From a virus, in the IMG/VR virus record IMGVR_UViG_3300035661_000037, positions 1-64,000 of that record: a stretch of 64,000 nucleotides of DNA. One strand, 5' to 3'. Below are positions 12,504 through 37,086 of this stretch, piece by piece. The notes beneath the pieces are model-generated. The model was not told the origin of the DNA and did not search any database. It saw only the letters and a list, made by a program, of their open reading frames with translations. The translations under genes and the position numbers were made by a program. Positions within the stretch are counted from its first letter, which is position 1. Every line of letters begins with the position of its first letter.

Positions 12504-12581
12504 AGGTCGTTAGCTTAATTGGTAAAAGCAGCCGACTCATAATCGGCAGATAGATTGGTTCGAGTCCAACACGACCTACCA
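12504..12581 (+). tRNA. tRNA-Met (anticodon CAU)
   Basis: A complete cloverleaf: acceptor arms AGGTCGT and ACGACCT, discriminator A and encoded CCA; D-arm with GG in the loop; anticodon stem GCCGA/TCGGC around loop CTCATAA, giving CAU; T-loop TTCGAGT. CAU can be Met or, if the C is modified to lysidine, Ile; the sequence does not settle this. It is co-transcribed from the promoter at 12282 with the genes after it. Confidence 0.85.
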
Positions 12582-13371: not shown

Positions 13372-13449
13372 GAGGCTTCATCTGAACTCTGGCGGATACC
13401 ATCCGTTATGCAAACTTCCAGAAATGGTTGAGAGTTCAGGTGAAGCCTC
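13372..13449 (+). repeat. 19-bp inverted repeat before GIY-YIG gene
   Basis: GAGGCTTCATCTGAACTCT (13372-13390) pairs with AGAGTTCAGGTGAAGCCTC (13431-13449); the one deviation is a G-U pair in RNA. A second small hairpin (CGGAT/ATCCG) sits in the 40-base loop. The stem ends 20 bases before the endonuclease start, so it could hide or expose the ribosome binding region or be a mark of the inserted element. Confidence 0.7.
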
Positions 13450-13469
13450 TTGTTTTGGAGAGTAAGCGT

Positions 13470-14177
13470 ATGGAAGACAAATTTAAGGCATATCTGTTAG
13501 AATGTTTAACCACAGGAAAAATATACGTTGGTATAACAACACAAACTCTGAAAAAGAGGCTTTCTCAGCATAAGATAGCAACATCAAAAACAGATACTAA
13601 AATAGGGCGACATCTTAGGAAGTACGGTACTGATTTGACAATAACTCATATTGCGTCAAGTTTAAATTTTGAACTATTGCTAGAGTTAGAAACGATTTTA
13701 ATAGTACAATATAACTCAAAACTAAAAGGGTTGAACTCAACTGACGGAGGGCAAGGGGTTATAGGTCACAAACATTCCGAAGAATCCAAAAATAAAATGA
13801 AACTACATAATTTAGCTATATGGAAAGTTCTGGGGTACCGTGAGAAAATGGTGGAGAAAGCCAAAATAGGGTGGGCTAACAAGAGTCAAGAGGAACTTTT
13901 AGCACATAAGCGACGAGCTGCAAAGAGCATGGCAATTGCAGCGAAGAATAGGATTAGGTCGAAGAAAGATAAGGTGGTTAGATACAAACATAAAGGCTGG
14001 AATATGAAGATAATAACTCATTGCCCTTCAGGACACGAATATAATTTTGAAAACACTAGATATAAGAAATGTGGAGGGCGAGTGTGTATCATATGCAAGC
14101 GGAAGACACGAAATATTGCTAGAGATACTAGAAGGGCTAAACTGGCAAAACTAAAATTGGAGTCAAACAATGCATGA
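13470..14177 (+). CDS. GIY-YIG homing endonuclease
   Basis: The start at 13470 follows TTGGAGAG; the TTG at 13428 lies inside the inverted repeat and is less likely. The 235-residue protein begins with a GIY-YIG nuclease domain (AYLLECLTTGKIYVGITTQT, then LKKRLSQHK with the catalytic Arg, and an LETILI segment with the metal-binding Glu). A GHKHSEESKNKMKL nuclease-associated modular domain follows, and a Cys-rich segment (CPSGHEY...CGGRVCIICKRK) near the C-terminus may bind zinc. Free-standing homing endonucleases of this type nick or cut related phage genomes to spread themselves. Confidence 0.85.
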   Translation: MEDKFKAYLLECLTTGKIYVGITTQTLKKRLSQHKIATSKTDTKIGRHLRKYGTDLTITHIASSLNFELLLELETILIVQYNSKLKGLNSTDGGQGVIGHKHSEESKNKMKLHNLAIWKVLGYREKMVEKAKIGWANKSQEELLAHKRRAAKSMAIAAKNRIRSKKDKVVRYKHKGWNMKIITHCPSGHEYNFENTRYKKCGGRVCIICKRKTRNIARDTRRAKLAKLKLESNNA

Positions 14178-14289
14178 AAAACAAGCGGAACACATCGGCG
14201 GTGCTATAGCTGAGAAGTTAACCTACAATCAGTCACGCGCTGACCACAAGCCTGATAACCGTGTTAAAGATGGCGGGAAGGCGTTTTGA
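14170..14289 (+). CDS. Hypothetical protein, 39 aa
   Basis: A 39-codon ORF overlapping the end of the endonuclease gene by eight bases and the start of the methyltransferase gene by TTGA. The product (begins MHEKQAEHIGGAIAEKL) is charged and ends DGGKAF. Tight overlaps on both sides suggest it is translated in coupling with its neighbours. It may be the C-terminal remainder of a gene interrupted by the endonuclease. Confidence 0.45.
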   Translation: MHEKQAEHIGGAIAEKLTYNQSRADHKPDNRVKDGGKAF

Positions 14290-15626
14290 GGTACCTTTCG
14301 CTATTCTCTGGTATTGAAGCAGCTAGCGTTGCATGGAATCCACTAGGTTGGGAATGCGTAGGCGTTGCGGAAATTGAAAAGTTCCCATGCAAAGTATTGG
14401 CGCACCATTATCCAGATGTGCCTAATCTTGGGGATATTACAAAAATTACCGAAACTGATATTGCGGAACTTGGTTTGATTGACGTAGTTGTGTTTGGAGC
14501 GCCGTGTCAGGACCTGAGTGTGGCCGGAAAACGAAAAGGAATGTTAGATGCGCACGGAAATATTACAAGAAGCGGATTGTTCTTTACAGCAATCAATATT
14601 GTTACTTGGGCTAGAAAACATTGCGCATGCCGATTTGCAATCTATGAAAATGTCCCTGGACTCTTCAGTTCCAACAAAGGCGCGGATTTTGCAAGCGTGG
14701 TTGAACACATGGCAGGACTCGACGACGTTACAGCGCCCAAGAACGGCTGGGGGTCAGAAGGCTGCGCGGTGGGCGACGAAGGAATGGTCGAATGGGCTTG
14801 TCTGGACGCACAATTCGTCAGAACACCGGAGTTCCCTACCGCCGTCCCTCAACGACGCAGGCGTGTCTTCGCTATCGCAGATTTTGGAGACTGGTCAACT
14901 AGACCGCCGATACTTCTTGAGCGCGAAAGCCTGCGCGGGGATACTCCATCGCGCCGAAGTAAGAGGCAAGAAACTCCCAGAGATGTTGTTGAAAGCTCTG
15001 GAAGTGGTGGTGCAATCGGAGCATTGTTCCCCGCATACTTCAAAGGTGCTGCAAGCCAGTGTGCAGACCAAGGAAATGTTGTAGGATGTTACGGAATTGC
15101 AGGAAATATTATCGGACGACAACCTGATAACGGTGGCAATGGAGACGGCTATTCTAATAATATCGGATACACATTGACTAAGACAGATGTTCATGCCGTA
15201 GTTTACCCAATAAATACCCAAATTGCTACAAGGTGTGTTACGCTTGGAGAAGGCACGGGACTAGGTATGGCTAATGAAGGAAAATCAGCATATACTCATC
15301 AGGCTGCACATTGTCATGCGGTTGCGTTTAGCACAGTTCCTGATATTTGTGGAACCATGAAAAGTTGTTCTGGTAAAAGTGTAACTTGGACAAATAGCGT
15401 TGACCACGCAGCTGCTGGTTATATACTCCCTATGGATACGCAAGTACGCCGATTGACCCCTATGGAGTGTGAAAGACTTCAAGGGTTTCCTGAAAACTAC
15501 ACAGGCATCCACGGAGCCAGCGATACAGCCCGCTACAAAGCACTAGGTAACTCTATGGCGTGTAACGTGATGCACTATATAGGACAACAAATTCAAAAAG
15601 CTGTAGACTACAATGCTAACCCTTAA
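14286..15626 (+). CDS. DNA cytosine-5 methyltransferase
   Basis: TTG start at 14286, overlapping the preceding stop (TTGA). The N-terminus has motif I (LSLFSGIEAAS), motif IV GAPCQDLSVAG with catalytic Cys74, motif VI YENVPG (residues 120-125) and motif VIII PQRRRRVFAI; the C-terminus has RRLTPMECERLQGFPENY and motif X GNSMACNVMHYIGQQ. A long middle insert (about residues 210-380) would be the target-recognition region. It transfers methyl from S-adenosylmethionine to cytosine C5, probably protecting phage DNA from host restriction. No cognate endonuclease is adjacent, so it is an orphan enzyme. Confidence 0.92.
   Translation: MRYLSLFSGIEAASVAWNPLGWECVGVAEIEKFPCKVLAHHYPDVPNLGDITKITETDIAELGLIDVVVFGAPCQDLSVAGKRKGMLDAHGNITRSGLFFTAINIVTWARKHCACRFAIYENVPGLFSSNKGADFASVVEHMAGLDDVTAPKNGWGSEGCAVGDEGMVEWACLDAQFVRTPEFPTAVPQRRRRVFAIADFGDWSTRPPILLERESLRGDTPSRRSKRQETPRDVVESSGSGGAIGALFPAYFKGAASQCADQGNVVGCYGIAGNIIGRQPDNGGNGDGYSNNIGYTLTKTDVHAVVYPINTQIATRCVTLGEGTGLGMANEGKSAYTHQAAHCHAVAFSTVPDICGTMKSCSGKSVTWTNSVDHAAAGYILPMDTQVRRLTPMECERLQGFPENYTGIHGASDTARYKALGNSMACNVMHYIGQQIQKAVDYNANP
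14548..15084 (+). other. Overlapping +1-frame ORF within methyltransferase
   Basis: A 178-codon frame inside the methyltransferase gene. Its C-terminal part reads SLSQILETGQLDRRYFLSAK followed by ACAGILHRAEVRGKKLPEML, a motif (LS-KACAGILRRAE-RGK-LP) that I associate with separate small phage proteins. No ribosome binding site or independent promoter is seen. It may be a true overprinted gene, or reflect that this DNA segment is used in the other frame in related phages. Confidence 0.35.
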
Positions 15627-16431
15627 CCTCCTACGCCTCAGCCTGGTAATAATCGCAGGGTTCTCAGCTATTAGCTCAGTTGCTGGCCTAGGCGAGGTCT
15701 TTCGCGGCTCATATTACCCGATCATCGTCCTTTCGTGCGGCCTAGAACTAGCGAAGTTCTCAGCGACATCACACGCATACCAGAACTGGCAGGATATATC
15801 AATAAAGTTTCAGACAGGGTTAGTAATCTTTGTTACGGTAACTAGTATTTTTACATCAGTTGGTATATTCGGCTACCTTGGGGACTCGTTCACAAAAACT
15901 CACATAACCGCCAAGAAAGATGATATAATTATACACCAGTTGCAGGTAACACAAGAGCGTCTAAATCTAAGAATTTTGGAAATAGACAAACAAATTCGAG
16001 AATTACCTAGTGAATTTGTGGTAGGCAGAGTTAAACTAATGAACGCATTCGCAGATGAGCGCAAACAAGTTAGTAAACTGTTAGATGAAACAAGCGACAA
16101 GTTGCAGTCAGCACTCAAACAGAACGTAGATACAGTAAGTGATTTAGGTCCAGTCGTACACTTGGCTAAGGCGTTCGGCACAACCGTAGAAACCGCTGTA
16201 GGTAACATGATACTAGTCCTAGCACTATTCTTGGACCCTGCCGCACTATTCTTAACTGTGCTTTTGAGTAGGAAAGTAGCAGAAAATACTTCAGAAAAAG
16301 TAGATACTATTCCTGAACCAGTTATACCTCGCAAGGTTGGTAGACCGGTTGGTAGCAGGAATAGGGATAAGGGGGTTGTTCAGGACGCTGACCAAACGAC
16401 ATCAACTAAAACAGATTGGAACTTCAAATGA
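15613..16431 (+). CDS. Multi-TM membrane protein with coiled coil
   Basis: A 272-residue protein with membrane segments at about residues 5-25, 33-45, 68-90 and 196-218, and a long coiled coil between them (residues about 104-175, rich in Leu/Glu/Lys). The SCGLELAKFSATSHAYQNWQ and TVTSIFTSVGIFGYLG segments resemble a membrane protein seen in many aquatic phages (MELAK...SLGIFGFLS). The C-terminal tail is polar with a basic GRPVGSRNRDKG patch. It overlaps the methyltransferase gene by 14 bases. Role unknown. Confidence 0.75.
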   Translation: MLTLNLLRLSLVIIAGFSAISSVAGLGEVFRGSYYPIIVLSCGLELAKFSATSHAYQNWQDISIKFQTGLVIFVTVTSIFTSVGIFGYLGDSFTKTHITAKKDDIIIHQLQVTQERLNLRILEIDKQIRELPSEFVVGRVKLMNAFADERKQVSKLLDETSDKLQSALKQNVDTVSDLGPVVHLAKAFGTTVETAVGNMILVLALFLDPAALFLTVLLSRKVAENTSEKVDTIPEPVIPRKVGRPVGSRNRDKGVVQDADQTTSTKTDWNFK

Positions 16432-17117: not shown

Positions 17118-18050
17118 ATGAAAATTAAATACCAAGCAATCATCACAGTTGAAAAAGCCCTCGAAGCGGTTAAGCGGGATCGCGATGCCTTGCGATACGT
17201 AAAATACCAGACTGAGGCGATATGCATCGAAGCAGTTATGCGTAATGGTGATGCCTTGCAGTACGTAAAAGACCAGACTGAGGCGATATGCATCGAAGCG
17301 GTTAAGCGGGACGGTTATGCCTTGAAGTACGTAAAAGAGCAGACTTATGCTGTATGTATCGAAGCGGTTAAGCAGGAGGGTTATGCCTTAAGATACTTAA
17401 AAGGCCAGACTGAGGAAGTATGCGTTGAAGCAGTGAAGCAGGATGGTAATTCCTTGCAGTATGTAAAAGACCAGACTGAACAGATAGTACTAGAAGCGGT
17501 AAAACGTACTGGTGAGTCATTGATGTACGTAAAAGACCAGACTCAGGCGATATGCCTTGAAGCGGTGAAGCGAGACCCAGAGGCCTTGCAGTATACAAAA
17601 GAGCAGACTGAAGCTGTATGCCTTGAAGCGGTTAAGCAGGATGGCTATATGTTGCAGTATGTAAAAGAGCAGACTGAAGCTGTATGCCTTGAAGCGGTTA
17701 AGCAGAATGGCTATATGTTGCAGTATGTAAAAGAGCAGACTTATGTAATGTGCTTAGAAGCAGTTAAGCGCGATGGGTGCACCTTACAGTACGTAAAAGA
17801 CCAGACTCCAGCGGTATGCCTAGAAGCGGTTAAGCGTGATGGCTTATCCTTGCTGTACGTAAAACACCAGACTGAGGAGATAGCACTAGAAGCGGTGAAG
17901 CGGGATGGTGCGGCCTTGCGATACGTAAAAGACCAGACTGAAGCGGTATGCCTCGAAGCAGTTAGTCGAGATCCAGAGGCCTTGCAGTACGTACTTGACT
18001 TCGACTTGTTCTCGCGTATTGCTGAAAAACTCAGTATTGACGTTGCATGA
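17118..18050 (+). CDS. DUF4116 repeat protein
   Basis: A 310-residue protein made almost wholly of 13 tandem 22-residue repeats of the type EAVKRDG-ALRYVKDQTEA-CL (DUF4116 pattern: A-x-DG-AL-Y), each encoded by about 66 bp, capped by a divergent end VLDFDLFSRIAEKLSIDVA. Each repeat should form a helix pair, giving an elongated superhelix used for protein binding. DUF4116 proteins are best known from Legionella, amoebae and giant viruses. Near-identical DNA repeats allow copy-number change by recombination; a truncated copy lies at 16687. It overlaps the next gene by ATGA. Confidence 0.85.
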   Translation: MKIKYQAIITVEKALEAVKRDRDALRYVKYQTEAICIEAVMRNGDALQYVKDQTEAICIEAVKRDGYALKYVKEQTYAVCIEAVKQEGYALRYLKGQTEEVCVEAVKQDGNSLQYVKDQTEQIVLEAVKRTGESLMYVKDQTQAICLEAVKRDPEALQYTKEQTEAVCLEAVKQDGYMLQYVKEQTEAVCLEAVKQNGYMLQYVKEQTYVMCLEAVKRDGCTLQYVKDQTPAVCLEAVKRDGLSLLYVKHQTEEIALEAVKRDGAALRYVKDQTEAVCLEAVSRDPEALQYVLDFDLFSRIAEKLSIDVA

Positions 18051-18559
18051 CAAACTATTTCTTTATATCTGATACGCATTTCGGGCACCAAGCGGCATGT
18101 CAGTTCTTACGCTCAGATGGTATTACAAAGATGAGACCATTCGAAACATCTGAAGAGATGGACGAAACAATCATTGACCGCTGGAACAAAGTCGTAAAGC
18201 CTAATGATCGCGTGTATGTCCTAGGTGACGTTGCAATGAAGCGTAAAGACATTCAGACTATTGGAAGGTGTTCTGGGCGTAAGGTACTGATACGCGGTAA
18301 CCACGACATCTTTAACATGGCTGACTATACCCCGTACTTTGACGACATTCGTGGTGTTCATGTGATGCCTACTAGAGATGCGATACTGTCACATATACCC
18401 CTACATCCTGACAGCGTTACACGATTTAAAACCAATATACACGGGCACTTGCATGACAATATTATTGAGGATCCTAGATATTTTAATGTATGTGTTGAGC
18501 ATACAGGATATGCGCCCATTAGTTATGAAGAAATTAAAGATAGCGGGAAGTCATTTTGA
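18047..18559 (+). CDS. Calcineurin-like metallophosphoesterase
   Basis: A 170-residue single-domain phosphoesterase with all metal-binding motifs: SDTHFGH (Asp9, His11), LGDVA (Asp61), GNHD (85-87), SHIP (His116) and HGHLH (132-136). It hydrolyses phosphodiester or phosphomonoester bonds; small phage members of this type are often 2',3'-cyclic or nucleotide phosphodiesterases. It overlaps the DUF4116 gene (ATGA) and the next methyltransferase gene (TGATG), so the three are translated together. Substrate not predictable. Confidence 0.88.
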   Translation: MTNYFFISDTHFGHQAACQFLRSDGITKMRPFETSEEMDETIIDRWNKVVKPNDRVYVLGDVAMKRKDIQTIGRCSGRKVLIRGNHDIFNMADYTPYFDDIRGVHVMPTRDAILSHIPLHPDSVTRFKTNIHGHLHDNIIEDPRYFNVCVEHTGYAPISYEEIKDSGKSF

Positions 18560-19401
18560 TGAACGTACTCTCGCTCTTTGATGGAATGTCCTGTGGTCAG
18601 CTTGCGCTTAACCGAGCAGGTATAAGCTACGATAACTATTATGCAAGTGAGGTAGATAAGCATGCGATAAAGGTAACACAGACTAACTATCCTGACACGA
18701 TCCAGCTAGGCGACGTGACTAAAGTCATCGCATCGGATTTACCACACATAGATCTCCTTATAGGAGGTAGTCCGTGCCAAGGGTTCTCTTTCGCAGGAAA
18801 ACAGTTAAACTTCGAAGACCCTCGAAGCAAGTTGTTCTTCGAGTTTGTACGACTGCTGAAAGAGTGTAAGCCGAAATACTTCCTGCTGGAGAATGTGGTC
18901 ATGAAGCAGGAGTATCAGGATGCCATTAGCGAGCACATGGGCTGCAAACCCATCAAGATAAACTCGGCCTTAGTATCGGCACAGAACCGTAACCGCTTAT
19001 ACTGGACTAATATACCTAACGTTATCCAGCCAGACGATATGGGTATTAAACTAGATGATTGTTTAGAACAGGGCTGGTACTCAAGTCGCAAGAAGTCTTA
19101 TTGTATTGATGCCAACTATGGAAAAGGTAGCAACCTGCGTAGGTATCTATATTGTGGGAGTAGACAATTGGTATTTAAAGATGGTTTTACTATCCCGCAC
19201 ATAGTGACAAAAGACACGGCGAATAAGTTTGGATCTGAGAATAAAGCCATGTGGCGTATGCTAACTCCACAAGAGTGTGAGAAGTTACAAACAGTACCAG
19301 AAGGATATACAGACACAGCCCCAAAAGTTTGGAGATATCATATGATAGGTAACGGTTGGACAGTGGATGTAATAGCACACATTTTAAAAGGTCTCAAATG
19401 A
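18559..19401 (+). CDS. DNA cytosine-5 methyltransferase, DNMT3-like type
   Basis: The ATG at 18559 overlaps the previous stop. The 280-residue protein has motif I VLSLFDGMSCGQLAL, motif IV GGSPCQGFSFAGKQ (Cys73), motif VI LLENVV (110-114), motif VIII SALVSAQNRNRLYW and motif X NGWTVDVIAHI, together with RMLTPQECEKLQTVPEGY. The short form with a small target domain resembles the phage methylases grouped with DNMT3-like enzymes. It is a second orphan cytosine methyltransferase, unrelated in detail to the one at 14286, so it probably has another target. Confidence 0.92.
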   Translation: MNVLSLFDGMSCGQLALNRAGISYDNYYASEVDKHAIKVTQTNYPDTIQLGDVTKVIASDLPHIDLLIGGSPCQGFSFAGKQLNFEDPRSKLFFEFVRLLKECKPKYFLLENVVMKQEYQDAISEHMGCKPIKINSALVSAQNRNRLYWTNIPNVIQPDDMGIKLDDCLEQGWYSSRKKSYCIDANYGKGSNLRRYLYCGSRQLVFKDGFTIPHIVTKDTANKFGSENKAMWRMLTPQECEKLQTVPEGYTDTAPKVWRYHMIGNGWTVDVIAHILKGLK

Positions 19402-22831: not shown

Positions 22832-23577
22832 AACTTCATATACTTAGCGATCTACACCTAGAGTTTTCAGATTTTATACCACCTAAAACAGACGCAGATG
22901 TCGTCGTGCTGGCGGGGGATATAGGTAAGTCGATACAAGGTCTTGTATGGGCACGTAAGGTATTCCCTGAGAAAGAGATAGTCTATGTGGCCGGTAATCA
23001 CGAGTATTATGGCATCGATATTTCAGAAACTAACTTATCTATGCGCATCACAGCTATTGAACTAGGTATTCACCTACTCGAAAACCGTTCAGTAATTATA
23101 GGCGGAACTAGGTTCATTGGAGCAACGCTATGGACTGATTTTAGACTGTTTGGGTATGATTCCGAAGAACAGGCACTACAAGTAGGGCAACGAGGGCTAA
23201 ACGACTTTAGGATAATACGCGACGATAGTAATATATTTACAGCCAAAAAGTCACAAGAGTTACATGAGATATCAATCAAGTATCTGAAGCACGAACTATC
23301 GCAGCCATTCAGTGGAAATACCGTAGTAGTTACACACCACCTACCATCTAAGTTATCAGTTGCTGACAGATTTAAGCATGATTTATTGTCTTGCTGCTTT
23401 GCGTCCAACTGTGACGACTTGTTTGGTCGTATGGATCTGTGGGTTCATGGACATACTCACGACAACATGGACTACGTTTCAGAAGGTACGCGAGTAGTTT
23501 GTAACCCTCGTGGATATGTTACAAGGTCTGGTACAGAGAATAAACAGTTTAATGAAGGGTTGGTGATTGAGTTATGA
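22828..23577 (+). CDS. Calcineurin-like metallophosphoesterase
   Basis: GTG start at 22828. The 249-residue protein has the full motif set: HILSDLHLEF, VLAGDIG, VAGNHEYYG (GNHE variant), VVTHHLPS and WVHGHTHDNMD. A metal-dependent phosphatase or phosphodiesterase in the cytoplasm; no close relation to the enzyme at 18047 is evident beyond the fold. It overlaps the nuclease gene downstream (ATGA), which suggests a role in nucleic-acid metabolism. Confidence 0.9.
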   Translation: MKLHILSDLHLEFSDFIPPKTDADVVVLAGDIGKSIQGLVWARKVFPEKEIVYVAGNHEYYGIDISETNLSMRITAIELGIHLLENRSVIIGGTRFIGATLWTDFRLFGYDSEEQALQVGQRGLNDFRIIRDDSNIFTAKKSQELHEISIKYLKHELSQPFSGNTVVVTHHLPSKLSVADRFKHDLLSCCFASNCDDLFGRMDLWVHGHTHDNMDYVSEGTRVVCNPRGYVTRSGTENKQFNEGLVIEL

Positions 23578-32943: not shown

Positions 32944-35892
32944 ATGCTAAAATTCTTGCACGCCGTGTGGCCTGATACTGGCAATTACCTTGTAGCATAT
33001 CCGCTACCAAAAGATGAGTTTGGGCAAACAAAATATGCGCAGACATCTTTTTCTAATAAAGAGCTTGCGTATAATCAGGCAATACAGTGGTCTAAAGAAG
33101 GTAAGGATTCTTACTTCGCAGTAGGCTCTGTAGATAACCTTGGGCAATTTGCAAAACGCACTGGCTCAAATATGTTATCGTTTAAGGCGTTTATCGTTGA
33201 TATCGACTGCGGGCAAGATAAGTTTGATAAAGGTGATGGTTATCTAACACAGGATGATGCGTTTGAAGCGCTTAAGGTTTTCCTCGTAAAACTTAACTTA
33301 CCCAAACCAATTCTTGTAAACTCTGGCTATGGCTGGCATGTGTACTGGGCGCTAACCGAGGATATACCTTCCGAGCGCTGGGTAGCGGTTTCAAAAAAGT
33401 TTAAGCAAGTTATCTCACATTCAGGACTAATCGCAGATAAGACACGTACCGCTGACCGCGCTAGTGTTCTACGAGTGCCTAGTACCATAAACTATAAGCG
33501 TGATACGCAAGCACCCGTAACAGTCATGAAGTGGTCAGAGCCGTGTACGTTAGAAGATTTTGTACAACCTATACAAGACTATTTTGACGCCAATAACCTA
33601 GTTGAAGCAGAATCTCAGCAGCGTGAAGTTTTATCAGAAGATGTAGCACTTCTAAAACAGTTTGGGATCGAACAAACAATTTCTGAGTATCCGCCCGCAG
33701 ACTTTCAGCTAATACTCGAAGGCTGTCAGACGATGCAGTATGCCGCTGACAACAACGAACTGCTAAACTACGACCAGTGGTGTGCAGCATTATCAGTCGC
33801 TAATGCTTGCGAAGATTTTGAAGGTGCTGTCAAGCAGCTGTCAGAAAATCATCCTGACTATAACCAGTCAGTCGCAGAGCATAAGGCAGCAGAATTCTTA
33901 CCATCAACATGTGGCAGAATGCGCGACATATTTGCTAGTTGTGCTGGTTGTGAGAGGAGTAATAACTCACCTTATGGTATCGGGTTTTCTATGCCATCAG
34001 AACATACAATCGATGGGGTGTCGAAGGCGGTTAGTATTATGCCATTTGCAGGCGCTACAGTAGCCGATGAGTTTGGGGAGTTTGCAGAACAGCCTAACGG
34101 TGTGATGGTTGATGGCTTCGATATCGAATATCCAGCACCCTACATCCTGACTACTGGGGGGATACATGTAAAAGTGGAGGGTGACAAAAGTGATTATACA
34201 CTTACAATTTGCCAGTACCCTATTAGATTTGTTGCACGTACCTCAGATTTCGCACTAGGGGAAGACGTAGCAAAATTTCAGATATTGTTTCCGCAAGATG
34301 GCTGGAGAGATTTTACGCTCAAGTTGAGGGACACAGTTGATTCAAAAGGCGGCAAGGTATGCAGCGAACTGGCGTCACAAGGGTGTATAATACCTAGTAA
34401 AGAACAAAAGTATATGGGAGAGTTTGTGAGCGCGTATCTACAATCTATTATTAACAAAATGGCGGCGGCTAAGAACTATGCACAGCTTGGTTGGGCTGAC
34501 GATGGTAACGTATTTGTTCTGAGCGACAAGTCAGTAAATCTTGACGGTACCCATACACTGTCTGGAATGTCGTCTACTATCGCCCCTATCTCAAAAGCCA
34601 TGAAGAAGAGAGGCACTCTCGAAGATTGGTTGAAGGTTATCAACGTTTATGCCCGAGACGGCTATGAACCTTACGCATTTGGGCACTCTATAGCTTATGG
34701 AAGTCTTTTATTCCGCTTTACCGACTATGAAGGTGCCGTGGTGTCGTTGCTAGGTAACAGCGGTTCAGGCAAGTCAACAATCCTCAAGACTATCAACAGT
34801 GTGTTTGGGCATCCGAAAGACCTTATGCTTCAGCAGCGTGATAACGAGGTTGCCAAGTTTGTACAGATAGCAGCGATGAATAATATCGCACCTTGCTATG
34901 ATGAAATATCTAATATTGAGCCGAAAGAACTGTCTGACCTGTGCTACGGCATCTCGCAAGGACGTGACAAGCGCAGGGGTGCTCAGAAAGGCGGCTTACG
35001 CGATGATGAACTAACATGGTGCTGTATCATGCCAGTAACATCAAACCACAGTCTATATGAGCGTCTAGGAACTCTTAAATCGGATGCCAGTGCGGAGGCT
35101 ATGCGCGTGTTCGAGTATCATGTACGTACTGACCTGCATCAAATGGGTAAACGGGAGTCGCAAGATACGTTTGAACCCCTGTCTGATAATTATGGTCACG
35201 CTGGTGAGATATTCGTAACTTGGTTAATGCAGAATAAAACACATGCTAAAGAACGTGTAAAATACTGGTTTAACCGTTTTGACGAAGAGGCTAACGTGCC
35301 AAGCAACGAGCGCTACTGGTCAGCGATCGTAGGTGCGACATTGGCAGGTGCTGAAATGTCTGCGAAACTTGGTCTAAATACCTTCGATGTTGAAAAGCTA
35401 TTCAAGTTTTCATTGGAGCAAGTCGTAGTTGCCCGTGGCTCAGTCAACGATAATAAACGTTCACCATCGGCGCTATTAGTAGACTTTATGAACAGCCAGA
35501 TACGCTCTACAATCGTCTTGGGTGGGGGTACAGTCGATAAAGGTAAGGACTCCCCGTTATGGGTTAAGCAAGAGCCTAGCAATGGCTTACAGGTACGTAT
35601 AGAGATCGACAAGAACGTTGCATACGTCTCACGCGCGGCAATCAGGCGGTGGATAACTGAAGGTGGTGGCGACTATTTCGGAATCAGGGCTGAGTTGATG
35701 AACAAGAAGATACTGCTCAGTGAGAAGACTGATAAAGTGTTGTCGGCAGGATCTCAGACACTCAAGACTGGTCAGTTACCGTGCTGGTTAATTGACCTGA
35801 ACCATAGAGAGATGAGTGGCGGCGCACAGTTGCAGGTTATTAAACTTAGGCAGACTGATGAGAAAGTAGTTGCTAATGGCGATCCGTTTTGA
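32944..35892 (+). CDS. Prim-pol primase/helicase fusion protein
   Basis: A 982-residue protein. The N-terminal domain is an archaeo-eukaryotic-type primase-polymerase: FIVDIDCG (Asp86/Asp88), NSGYGWHVYW (S-G-x-G-x-H, residues 127-135) and DRASVLRVPSTINYK (from Asp171). A linker with Cys-rich CGRMRDIFASCAGCE follows, then a DUF927-like ATPase domain with GWADDGNVFVLSD, Walker A GNSGSGKST (Lys610) and a Walker B-like APCYDEISN. It probably primes and unwinds DNA for the family A polymerase. The last 34 bases are repeated exactly at the end of the next gene. Confidence 0.9.
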   Translation: MLKFLHAVWPDTGNYLVAYPLPKDEFGQTKYAQTSFSNKELAYNQAIQWSKEGKDSYFAVGSVDNLGQFAKRTGSNMLSFKAFIVDIDCGQDKFDKGDGYLTQDDAFEALKVFLVKLNLPKPILVNSGYGWHVYWALTEDIPSERWVAVSKKFKQVISHSGLIADKTRTADRASVLRVPSTINYKRDTQAPVTVMKWSEPCTLEDFVQPIQDYFDANNLVEAESQQREVLSEDVALLKQFGIEQTISEYPPADFQLILEGCQTMQYAADNNELLNYDQWCAALSVANACEDFEGAVKQLSENHPDYNQSVAEHKAAEFLPSTCGRMRDIFASCAGCERSNNSPYGIGFSMPSEHTIDGVSKAVSIMPFAGATVADEFGEFAEQPNGVMVDGFDIEYPAPYILTTGGIHVKVEGDKSDYTLTICQYPIRFVARTSDFALGEDVAKFQILFPQDGWRDFTLKLRDTVDSKGGKVCSELASQGCIIPSKEQKYMGEFVSAYLQSIINKMAAAKNYAQLGWADDGNVFVLSDKSVNLDGTHTLSGMSSTIAPISKAMKKRGTLEDWLKVINVYARDGYEPYAFGHSIAYGSLLFRFTDYEGAVVSLLGNSGSGKSTILKTINSVFGHPKDLMLQQRDNEVAKFVQIAAMNNIAPCYDEISNIEPKELSDLCYGISQGRDKRRGAQKGGLRDDELTWCCIMPVTSNHSLYERLGTLKSDASAEAMRVFEYHVRTDLHQMGKRESQDTFEPLSDNYGHAGEIFVTWLMQNKTHAKERVKYWFNRFDEEANVPSNERYWSAIVGATLAGAEMSAKLGLNTFDVEKLFKFSLEQVVVARGSVNDNKRSPSALLVDFMNSQIRSTIVLGGGTVDKGKDSPLWVKQEPSNGLQVRIEIDKNVAYVSRAAIRRWITEGGGDYFGIRAELMNKKILLSEKTDKVLSAGSQTLKTGQLPCWLIDLNHREMSGGAQLQVIKLRQTDEKVVANGDPF

Positions 35893-36633
35893 GTACATTT
35901 AAGCTAAAACAAGGCGACACCCTTGAACTGATGGCTACACTACCTGATAAGTGTGTTGATATGATTCTGTGCGACCTACCGTATGGTACAACTGCATGTA
36001 AGTGGGACACTGTGATACCATTTGAACCATTGTGGGAGCAGTATAAGCGGCTATGCAAAGGGAGTATTGTTTTATTTTCATCGCAGCCATTCACTACAGA
36101 ACTCATACATTCTAATTTGGGGGGGCTATAGATACTCTTGGGTCTGGAATAAGAATTTTTCCACTAATTTTTTACACGCCTCAAGAATGCCCCTGCGTAA
36201 TACCGAGGACATTTGTATATTCGGGAAAGGTACTTACAATCCTCAAAAGACTGACGGGCACATACCCACACAATCGGCAATAGGGGCATCCAATGGCGTA
36301 CTCTACCACGGAAAAAATAAGCGTAACTATGTTGGAGGAGATACCACCAGATTCCCTACAACACTTTTAGAATTTGATGCGCACGACCCAAAAAATAGAC
36401 AACACCCAACCCAAAAGCCCGTACCTCTCTGCGAGTATCTTATCAAGACCTACACCAACGCAGGCGAGTGGGTGCTAGATAACACAATGGGCAGTGGTAC
36501 AACTGGCGTGGCTTGCATGAATACCGGAAGGAACTTCATCGGCATCAAGCGAGACGACAAGTATTTTGAGATTGCTAAGGCACGGATAACGGAAGCAAGT
36601 GAGAAAGTAGTTGCTAATGGCGATCCGTTTTGA
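35859..36633 (+). repeat. 34-bp direct repeat bounding a methyltransferase gene
   Basis: TGAGAAAGTAGTTGCTAATG plus the next 14 bases occurs identically at 35859-35892 and 36600-36633. Each copy encodes the same last residues (EKVVANGDPF) and the stop codon: once for the prim-pol protein, once for the methyltransferase. The unit between is exactly one gene, as expected if a 741-bp segment had inserted with duplication of the 3' end of the older gene. Confidence 0.9.
35889..36633 (+). pseudogene. N6-adenine/N4-cytosine methyltransferase, frameshifted
   Basis: TTG start at 35889 (TTGA overlap). The first 80 codons give TLPDKCVDMILCDLPYGTTA (motif IV, DLPY) and stop just after a G7 tract (36119-36125). 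The other frame then continues with YRYSWVWNKNFSTNFL, QHPTQKPVPLCEYL and motif I NTMGSGTTGVA to 36633. With six G residues the two parts join perfectly as a beta-class methyltransferase of about 247 residues. Either the gene is broken, or it is phase-variable through slippage in the G tract, or the base count is a sequencing error. Confidence 0.85.
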
Positions 36634-36676
36634 TAAGATTGAAATGTTAGTAAATTTTAGTAAAGTTTGATAGTTT

Positions 36677-36749
36677 TGCTGGTATCCCGATTAGGTAGCT
36701 CGGCATGAGCGTAAGTTTCCAAATTAGTCTATTATAGGCCATACCAGCA
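36677..36749 (+). ncRNA. tRNA-like structured element
   Basis: Perfect 9-bp arms TGCTGGTAT (36677-36685) and ATACCAGCA (36741-36749) close a 73-base element, followed by CCCA. Inside is a second hairpin CCGA-TTAGGTAGC-TCGG that resembles a D-arm with GG. No proper anticodon or T-arm can be formed, so it may be a decayed tRNA or a tRNA-mimic RNA. It lies 9 bases before the UCA tRNA. Confidence 0.4.
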
Positions 36750-36758
36750 CCCATTTAA

Positions 36759-36832
36759 GACTTGTTAGCACAAGGGTAGTGCGGCGGCGTTCAAAGTCGT
36801 TTATCGCAGTTCGATTCTGTGGCTCGTCTCCA
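36759..36832 (+). tRNA. tRNA with anticodon UCA (opal-reading)
   Basis: A 74-base cloverleaf with encoded CCA: D-stem GCAC/GTGC with GG in the loop; anticodon stem GCGGC/GTCGT around loop GTTCAAA (U33, anticodon TCA at 36791-36793); T-stem CGCAG/CTGTG with TTCGATT. U8, A14, G18G19, A21 and A58 are all present. The acceptor stem GACTTGT/GCTCGTC has two mismatches in the middle. Discriminator U is typical of tRNA-Cys, not of Trp or Sec. It should read UGA if functional. Confidence 0.65.
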
Positions 36833-36867
36833 ATTTTTCTGTGTAGTGTTAAGGAAGTCACCTACCA

Positions 36868-37086
36868 CTATTTACTCAAGCAAGCCCTGCGACACTCACG
36901 GTACTGCCCACCAAGTTCCTGAACCTTCAAGATATGCCCGCCGAATGTAGCATCGGTTAGCGGAGTAGGTTCAGGGCAAGAAACAGTAGACAACGACTTA
37001 TCAACACAGTCGAGCTGAGTAGGGGATTTTAGGAACCACCCCCCGCCAAAGCCCAATGCCAATGATAATAACAATATTATTTCCAT
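36868..37086 (-). CDS. o-spanin-like (Rz1-type) protein
   Basis: A 72-residue protein with an N-terminal hydrophobic segment (MEIILLLSLALGFGGGWFL) and a short Cys-containing, Pro-bearing rest (VSCPEPTPLTDATFGGH), starting inside the end of the Rz-like gene. Position and overlap match an outer-membrane spanin subunit, though a clear lipobox is not seen, so it could also be a small type II anchored protein. The last gene of the lysis cassette. Confidence 0.6.
   Translation of the reverse strand: MEIILLLSLALGFGGGWFLKSPTQLDCVDKSLSTVSCPEPTPLTDATFGGHILKVQELGGQYRECRRACLSK

Follow-up and report, generated by a model that had tools for sequence, protein, structure and literature searches.

The window analysed here is a 64,000-nucleotide stretch of a viral genome (positions 1 to 64,000 of the 82,711-base IMG/VR record IMGVR_UViG_3300035661_000037). 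At 36759-36832 (+) it carries a tRNA gene with the anticodon UCA, set between early genes on the (+) strand and convergent late lysis genes on the (−) strand. The early side includes a primase/helicase-like gene (32944-35892, +), recognised by PHROG matches, which is 61% identical to that of the nearest relative found, IMGVR_UViG_3300022214_000006 (L006/G001), and anchors the synteny with it. A DNA methyltransferase gene (35889-36633, +; PHROG 67 match) is the last protein gene before the tRNA. Its two frames shift at a seven-G run near 36120 and align to consecutive parts of an intact L006 gene; an assembly error, a decayed gene and a phase-variable tract are all possible. On the late side, a small lysis-cassette gene (36868-37086, −) probably encodes an outer spanin (Rz1-like), judging from size, position and lipoprotein-like sequence; its homologue stands beside a tRNA-Gly in L006, whose lysis protein is 75% identical. 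With the methyltransferase ending at 36633 and the lysis cassette at 36868, the tRNA does sit where early and late units converge, as an earlier note on this DNA had stated.

Both ARAGORN, which that note had suggested running, and Rfam found the tRNA at exactly the coordinates it had proposed, confirming the gene and its UCA anticodon. RF00005 matches 36759-36829 at 37.1 bits, above the gathering score of 29, and the sequence forms a four-arm cloverleaf, which places it in the tRNA family. The E-value is 3.6e-4 with all Rfam families against the window and 1.1e-7 with the tRNA model alone against the 82.7-kb record; the latter indicates a fold beyond chance. The molecule is 74 nt long, with a 7-bp acceptor stem, a 4-bp D stem, a 5-bp T stem, a variable loop of 4 nt, and a 5-bp anticodon stem (two pairs G-U) closing the loop GUUCAAA. 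Nineteen of the 21 stem pairs form. The exceptions are acceptor positions 4-69 (U/C) and 5-68 (U/U), where U4 and U5 (36762-36763, +) are left unpaired with C69 and U68 in both the NC line of the Rfam alignment and the ARAGORN drawing. At the 3′ end, the U before CCA was read correctly: U73 lies at 36829 and an encoded CCA at 36830-36832. The tertiary positions were described as completely conserved, and nearly all are (U8, A14, A15-U48, G18, G19, A21, U33, U54, U55, C56 and A58); the description fails at base 32, an atypical G found in 6 of 237 tRNAs checked. The whole record holds one other tRNA, a tRNA-Met(CAU) at 12504-12581 (+) called by ARAGORN and scoring 58.7 bits with RF00005, which served as a yardstick.

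Measured against other tRNAs, this one is of poor quality. Its 37.1 bits fall below 137 of 138 comparison matches from phages and bacteria, those 137 scoring 40-75 bits. The sole lower scorer (36.2 bits) is a damaged Cys-like copy, itself with the anticodon UCA, in a locus of Vibrio sp. CAU 1672 (L086:2258-2331) that also holds an intact tRNA-Cys(GCA). Two or more acceptor mismatches occur in only 4 of 148 tRNAs with an encoded CCA, the UCA tRNA among them. Folded alone, it reaches the same energy as its shuffles (z −0.25), compared with z −3.4 for the tRNA-Gly of L006. The doubt about function that the two mismatches had raised is thus supported.

The discriminator had been described as Cys-type and as untypical of Trp or Sec. 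The base and the second half of that statement hold, but tRNA-Gly, for which U73 is just as usual, was overlooked: in the comparison set 7/7 Cys and 11/12 Gly tRNAs have this base, so Cys is only one of two choices. Published tRNA-Cys features are U73 and the anticodon GCA (PMC7609411). The UCA tRNA has U73, C35 and A36, and carries U at position 34, A-U at 15-48 and C-G at 13-22. Identity elements of E. coli tRNA-Cys further include G15-G48 and A13-A22. For tRNA-Gly the elements are U73, C35, C36, G1-C72, C2-G71 and G3-C70; here U73, C35 and G1-C72 are present, and A36, A2-U71 and C3-G70 deviate. For tRNA-Trp, defined by G73, A1-U72, G5-C68 and C35-A36, an opal-type match is limited to C35-A36 and is contradicted by U73, G1-C72 and the U5/U68 mismatch; G73 occurs in 6 of 6 Trp tRNAs of the comparison set. 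tRNA-Sec (SelC), defined by about 90-101 nt, a long variable arm and G73 (PMC5330540), was rejected on the length of 74 nt, the 4-nt variable loop, U73 and the lack of an RF01852 match. The ARAGORN label 'tRNA-SeC(tca)' results from the anticodon alone. U73 and the structure thus exclude Trp and Sec. Similarity takes the question no further: among 245 tRNAs the nearest-neighbour score falls in the bottom quarter, a range in which only 18 of 42 isotype calls were right. The isotype thus appears not assignable by similarity, with U73 leaving Gly or Cys.

These features bear on whether the gene could be a functional opal suppressor, charged by the host synthetase with Cys or Gly and reading through UGA codons of the phage or the host at a low level, for example to disturb host protein ends or produce minor extended proteins. 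The cloverleaf is largely intact, U73, C35 and A36 fit CysRS, some CysRS variants charge tRNA-Cys with a UCA anticodon (PMC7609411), and a UCA tRNA has been reported in the standard-code phage Atu_ph07 (PMC6102473). We nonetheless regard such a suppressor as unlikely, given that the E. coli Cys elements A13-A22, G15-G48 and G34 and the Gly elements C2-G71, G3-C70 and C36 are all missing, and that no extended or interrupted target genes were found. By wobble, a UCA anticodon would also be expected to misread UGG, a codon with 247 occurrences in the larger genes.

Comparison with L006 places the gene in a shared genomic slot. The window runs from primase (+) through methyltransferase (+) and tRNA (+) to the lysis genes (−); L006 has the primase followed by tRNA-Gly(UCC), then a strong terminator-like hairpin with a U-run, and then the same lysis genes. 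The matching order indicates that a tRNA occupies this slot in both phages, a comparison that rests on one relative. The L006 gene (L006:13176-13251) likewise stands between the primase and lysis genes that converge on it, and it too has U73 and an encoded CCA. It differs in its UCC anticodon and perfect acceptor stem and is clean, at 67.5 bits. It is 56.6% identical to the UCA tRNA, a value within the range seen between unrelated tRNAs (about 46-68%); for the tRNA-Met genes of the same two phages the figure is 79.5%. Direct orthology was therefore rejected, as the position fits and the sequence does not. The Cys-type identity proposed earlier gains nothing here, since the syntenic tRNA is Gly(UCC) and similarity gives the UCA tRNA no isotype. 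On the sequences, the UCA gene in the Gly slot would have either replaced a predecessor or drifted fast. In the relatives G012 and G014 no tRNA was found at the corresponding place, although they carry other tRNAs elsewhere; at greater distance, the primase resembles that of Pseudomonas phage Rollin (29%), and other matches are to structural proteins of the HMO-2011/cyanophage kind.

Could the gene be an ordinary tRNA-Gly(UCC) altered by sequence errors, or a minor variant of one (UCC to UCA, with acceptor changes)? Metagenome assemblies do at times contain such faults. L006 has a tRNA-Gly(UCC) at the same place, and the frame shift at the G7 run 0.6 kb upstream leaves the assembly not above suspicion. 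The tRNA body, however, is not Gly-like (56.6% identity; A2-U71 instead of C2-G71, C3-G70 instead of G3-C70), and several independent errors would be needed, which makes this origin very improbable.

The convergent position raises another possibility, that of a tRNA-like element for RNA processing, in which RNase P or 3′-end cleavage at the tRNA would fix where the early transcript ends, at its meeting point with the late unit, and decoding would be irrelevant. No terminator-like site was found directly after the UCA tRNA, in contrast to the strong hairpin and U-run of L006, and a folded leader lies upstream in both phages. In the window this is a possible structured leader at 36677-36749 (+), closed by the 9-bp helix UGCUGGUAU/AUACCAGCA, weakly folded (z about −2.0 to −2.2) and without an Rfam match. 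In L006 a strongly folded RNA with a long closing helix (L006:12964-13100; z −4.2), likewise without an Rfam match, lies between primase and tRNA-Gly. The two leaders do not align convincingly, so homology is not supported, and the L006 slot holds a normal, well-folded tRNA-Gly, which makes decoding the simpler ancestral role. We consider a processing element very unlikely. In theta-ribozyme-associated suppressor tRNAs, an HDV-like ribozyme adjoins the tRNA 3′ end (PMC10879173); an Rfam scan of 36600-36900 found no ribozyme or other RNA near the UCA tRNA.

UGA is an ordinary stop codon in this phage. Among the 88 ORFs counted, taken as longest non-overlapping ORFs with no trained gene finder, 33 terminate in UGA: 20 of the 40 early ones and 13 of the 48 late ones (Fisher p 0.046, uncorrected). 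Several of the early UGA stops belong to ATGA overlaps. That many early genes stop at UGA is accordingly true, and listing stops by gene class, which the earlier note had suggested, bears out frequent early UGA but shows late genes using it too. A homology scan, with six frames opened and competing frames removed, covered 29.3 kb of coding homology to relatives, over which no conserved coding sequence spans a UGA. The UGAs at 23575 and 37719 coincide with stops of relatives, so the phage follows the standard code, and the suggestion that the tRNA suits a recoding host is not supported. Nor does the other suggestion, read-through late in infection, find support: late genes themselves end in UGA, and the median extension past UGA is 8 codons in early and 10 in late genes, as short as after UAA (6.5 and 10). 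UGA-recoded phages often, although not always, carry helpers such as RF1 or TrpRS. Searches for release factor, CysRS and Trp/TyrRS genes gave no PF00472, PF00579 or PF01406 match anywhere in the 82.7-kb record, itself possibly incomplete. On UGA usage, shared stops and the lack of helper-gene matches, the phage uses the standard code, and late-gene read-through is unsupported. Programmed or global UGA read-through by a Cys- or Gly-charged tRNA made with the early genes, the phage's own genes not being recoded, would be quite unlikely.

A UGA-recoding system, whether a code-4 or code-25 phage or a host in which the tRNA decodes UGA as sense, draws on the UCA anticodon and on the existence of code-4 and code-25 phages with such tRNAs (PMC12386605, PMC13059738). 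Interrupted genes, coverage and helper genes all fail to place this phage among them. Opening UGA gains no more ORF coverage than opening UAG (56,025 against 55,746 bases, an equal rise), no in-frame UGA is conserved, UGA stops are shared with relatives and terminate over a third of the ORFs, and no release-factor or Trp/TyrRS gene was found. Code-4 and code-25 recoding was therefore rejected, and its probability is negligible: on the aligned sequences the shared stop positions already refute it, bar an isolated gene that might escape. Known cases differ. Code-4 phage tRNAs (for example that of Lera, PMC12386605, and those of loci L099-L116) share the UCA anticodon, but those loci come from a pattern that required G73, and 10 of the 11 UCA tRNAs in them have a perfect acceptor, neither of which holds here, and Lera genes contain in-frame UGA (PMC12386605), which the genes of this phage do not. 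The tRNA-Gly(UCA) of the patescibacterial phage RSA-ATP1 is likewise a phage tRNA with UCA, of an isotype that usually carries U73, yet RSA-ATP1 reads UGA as Gly (PMC13059738) and the window phage stops there.

Similar tRNAs are rare. An exact 28-base pattern of the UCA tRNA returned no relative from IMG/VR viral contigs, and phage, plasmid and E. coli collections gave only generic or marginal matches. A pattern of U73 plus UCA gave eight matches in 2.9 million viral contigs, one of them a tRNA called UCA by ARAGORN (L047, a phage candidate with an incomplete, 4-pair anticodon stem); the remaining matches examined look like chance or like tRNAs of other anticodons in a shifted frame. The G73 control pattern gave 20 matches, 11 of them with UCA tRNAs, of which 10 have perfect acceptor stems. 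Because the patterns are strict, these counts are lower bounds. The U73 pattern also yielded three bacterial tRNAs. A well-formed Gly-like tRNA with UCA (68.5 bits) lies in a Thalassotalea MAG (L071:2860-2933, JAQWHD010000054.1), in the usual glyT place of a thrU-tyrU-glyT-thrT-like cluster, as a natural or mis-assembled opal glyT; a clean Gly-like one (74.3 bits) lies in an Alphaproteobacteria MAG (L078:153-226, JAJPIH010000363.1).

Taken together, the best-supported reading, to which we give a probability of roughly 60%, is that the UCA tRNA is a real tRNA-derived phage gene that is probably decaying or barely functional, its anticodon merely happening to suit UGA and not tied to a code switch. 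A damaged-looking tRNA without clear isotype, in a phage that stops at UGA, is most probably a remnant that has decayed or works only weakly; it is the damage, the unplaceable isotype and the ordinary use of UGA as a stop that favour a remnant over a code switch. In the slot where the nearest relative has its tRNA-Gly(UCC), the gene would either have replaced such a tRNA or have degenerated from one, and it would be co-transcribed with the early (+) unit. If matured and charged by host GlyRS or CysRS, it would give little UGA read-through, lengthening a typical protein that ends at UGA by some 8-10 residues, probably without consequence. Several sequence features speak against decay. The CCA end, 19 of 21 stem pairs and almost every tertiary position are intact, so decay must be recent or constraint persists, and one lesion might account for both mismatches, which are adjacent. 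Mismatches in the acceptor stem are also compatible with activity in some tRNAs.

A lone UCA tRNA in a standard-code phage is, by analogy, already known in kind. Atu_ph07, an Agrobacterium jumbo phage with 33 tRNAs and tRNA-processing enzymes, likewise has a single UCA tRNA, many UGA stops and no known target (PMC6102473). The likeness is one of description, and the present record holds two tRNAs. The amber suppressors of XacN1 and the apparently inactive suppressors of zeta crAss-like phages also have no detectable targets (PMC5852040, PMC12386605); the XacN1 tRNAs are CUA, and both kinds of phage carry large tRNA sets, unlike this one. A working UCA tRNA would be a small test case for why standard-code phages have stop-reading tRNAs without targets, a puzzle that Atu_ph07, XacN1 and the zeta crAss-like phages have posed before. 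A non-working one would warn against equating the 'SeC/UCA' label that ARAGORN gives to a phage tRNA with recoding; UGA usage and relatives need checking first. Elsewhere in the window, a homing-endonuclease-like gene lies beside a C5-cytosine methyltransferase (13428-16431), a further DNA methyltransferase at 18556-19401 brings the phage, with 35889-36633, to at least three such genes, and the early region encodes a DUF4116 repeat protein with ten matched stretches (17118-18050).
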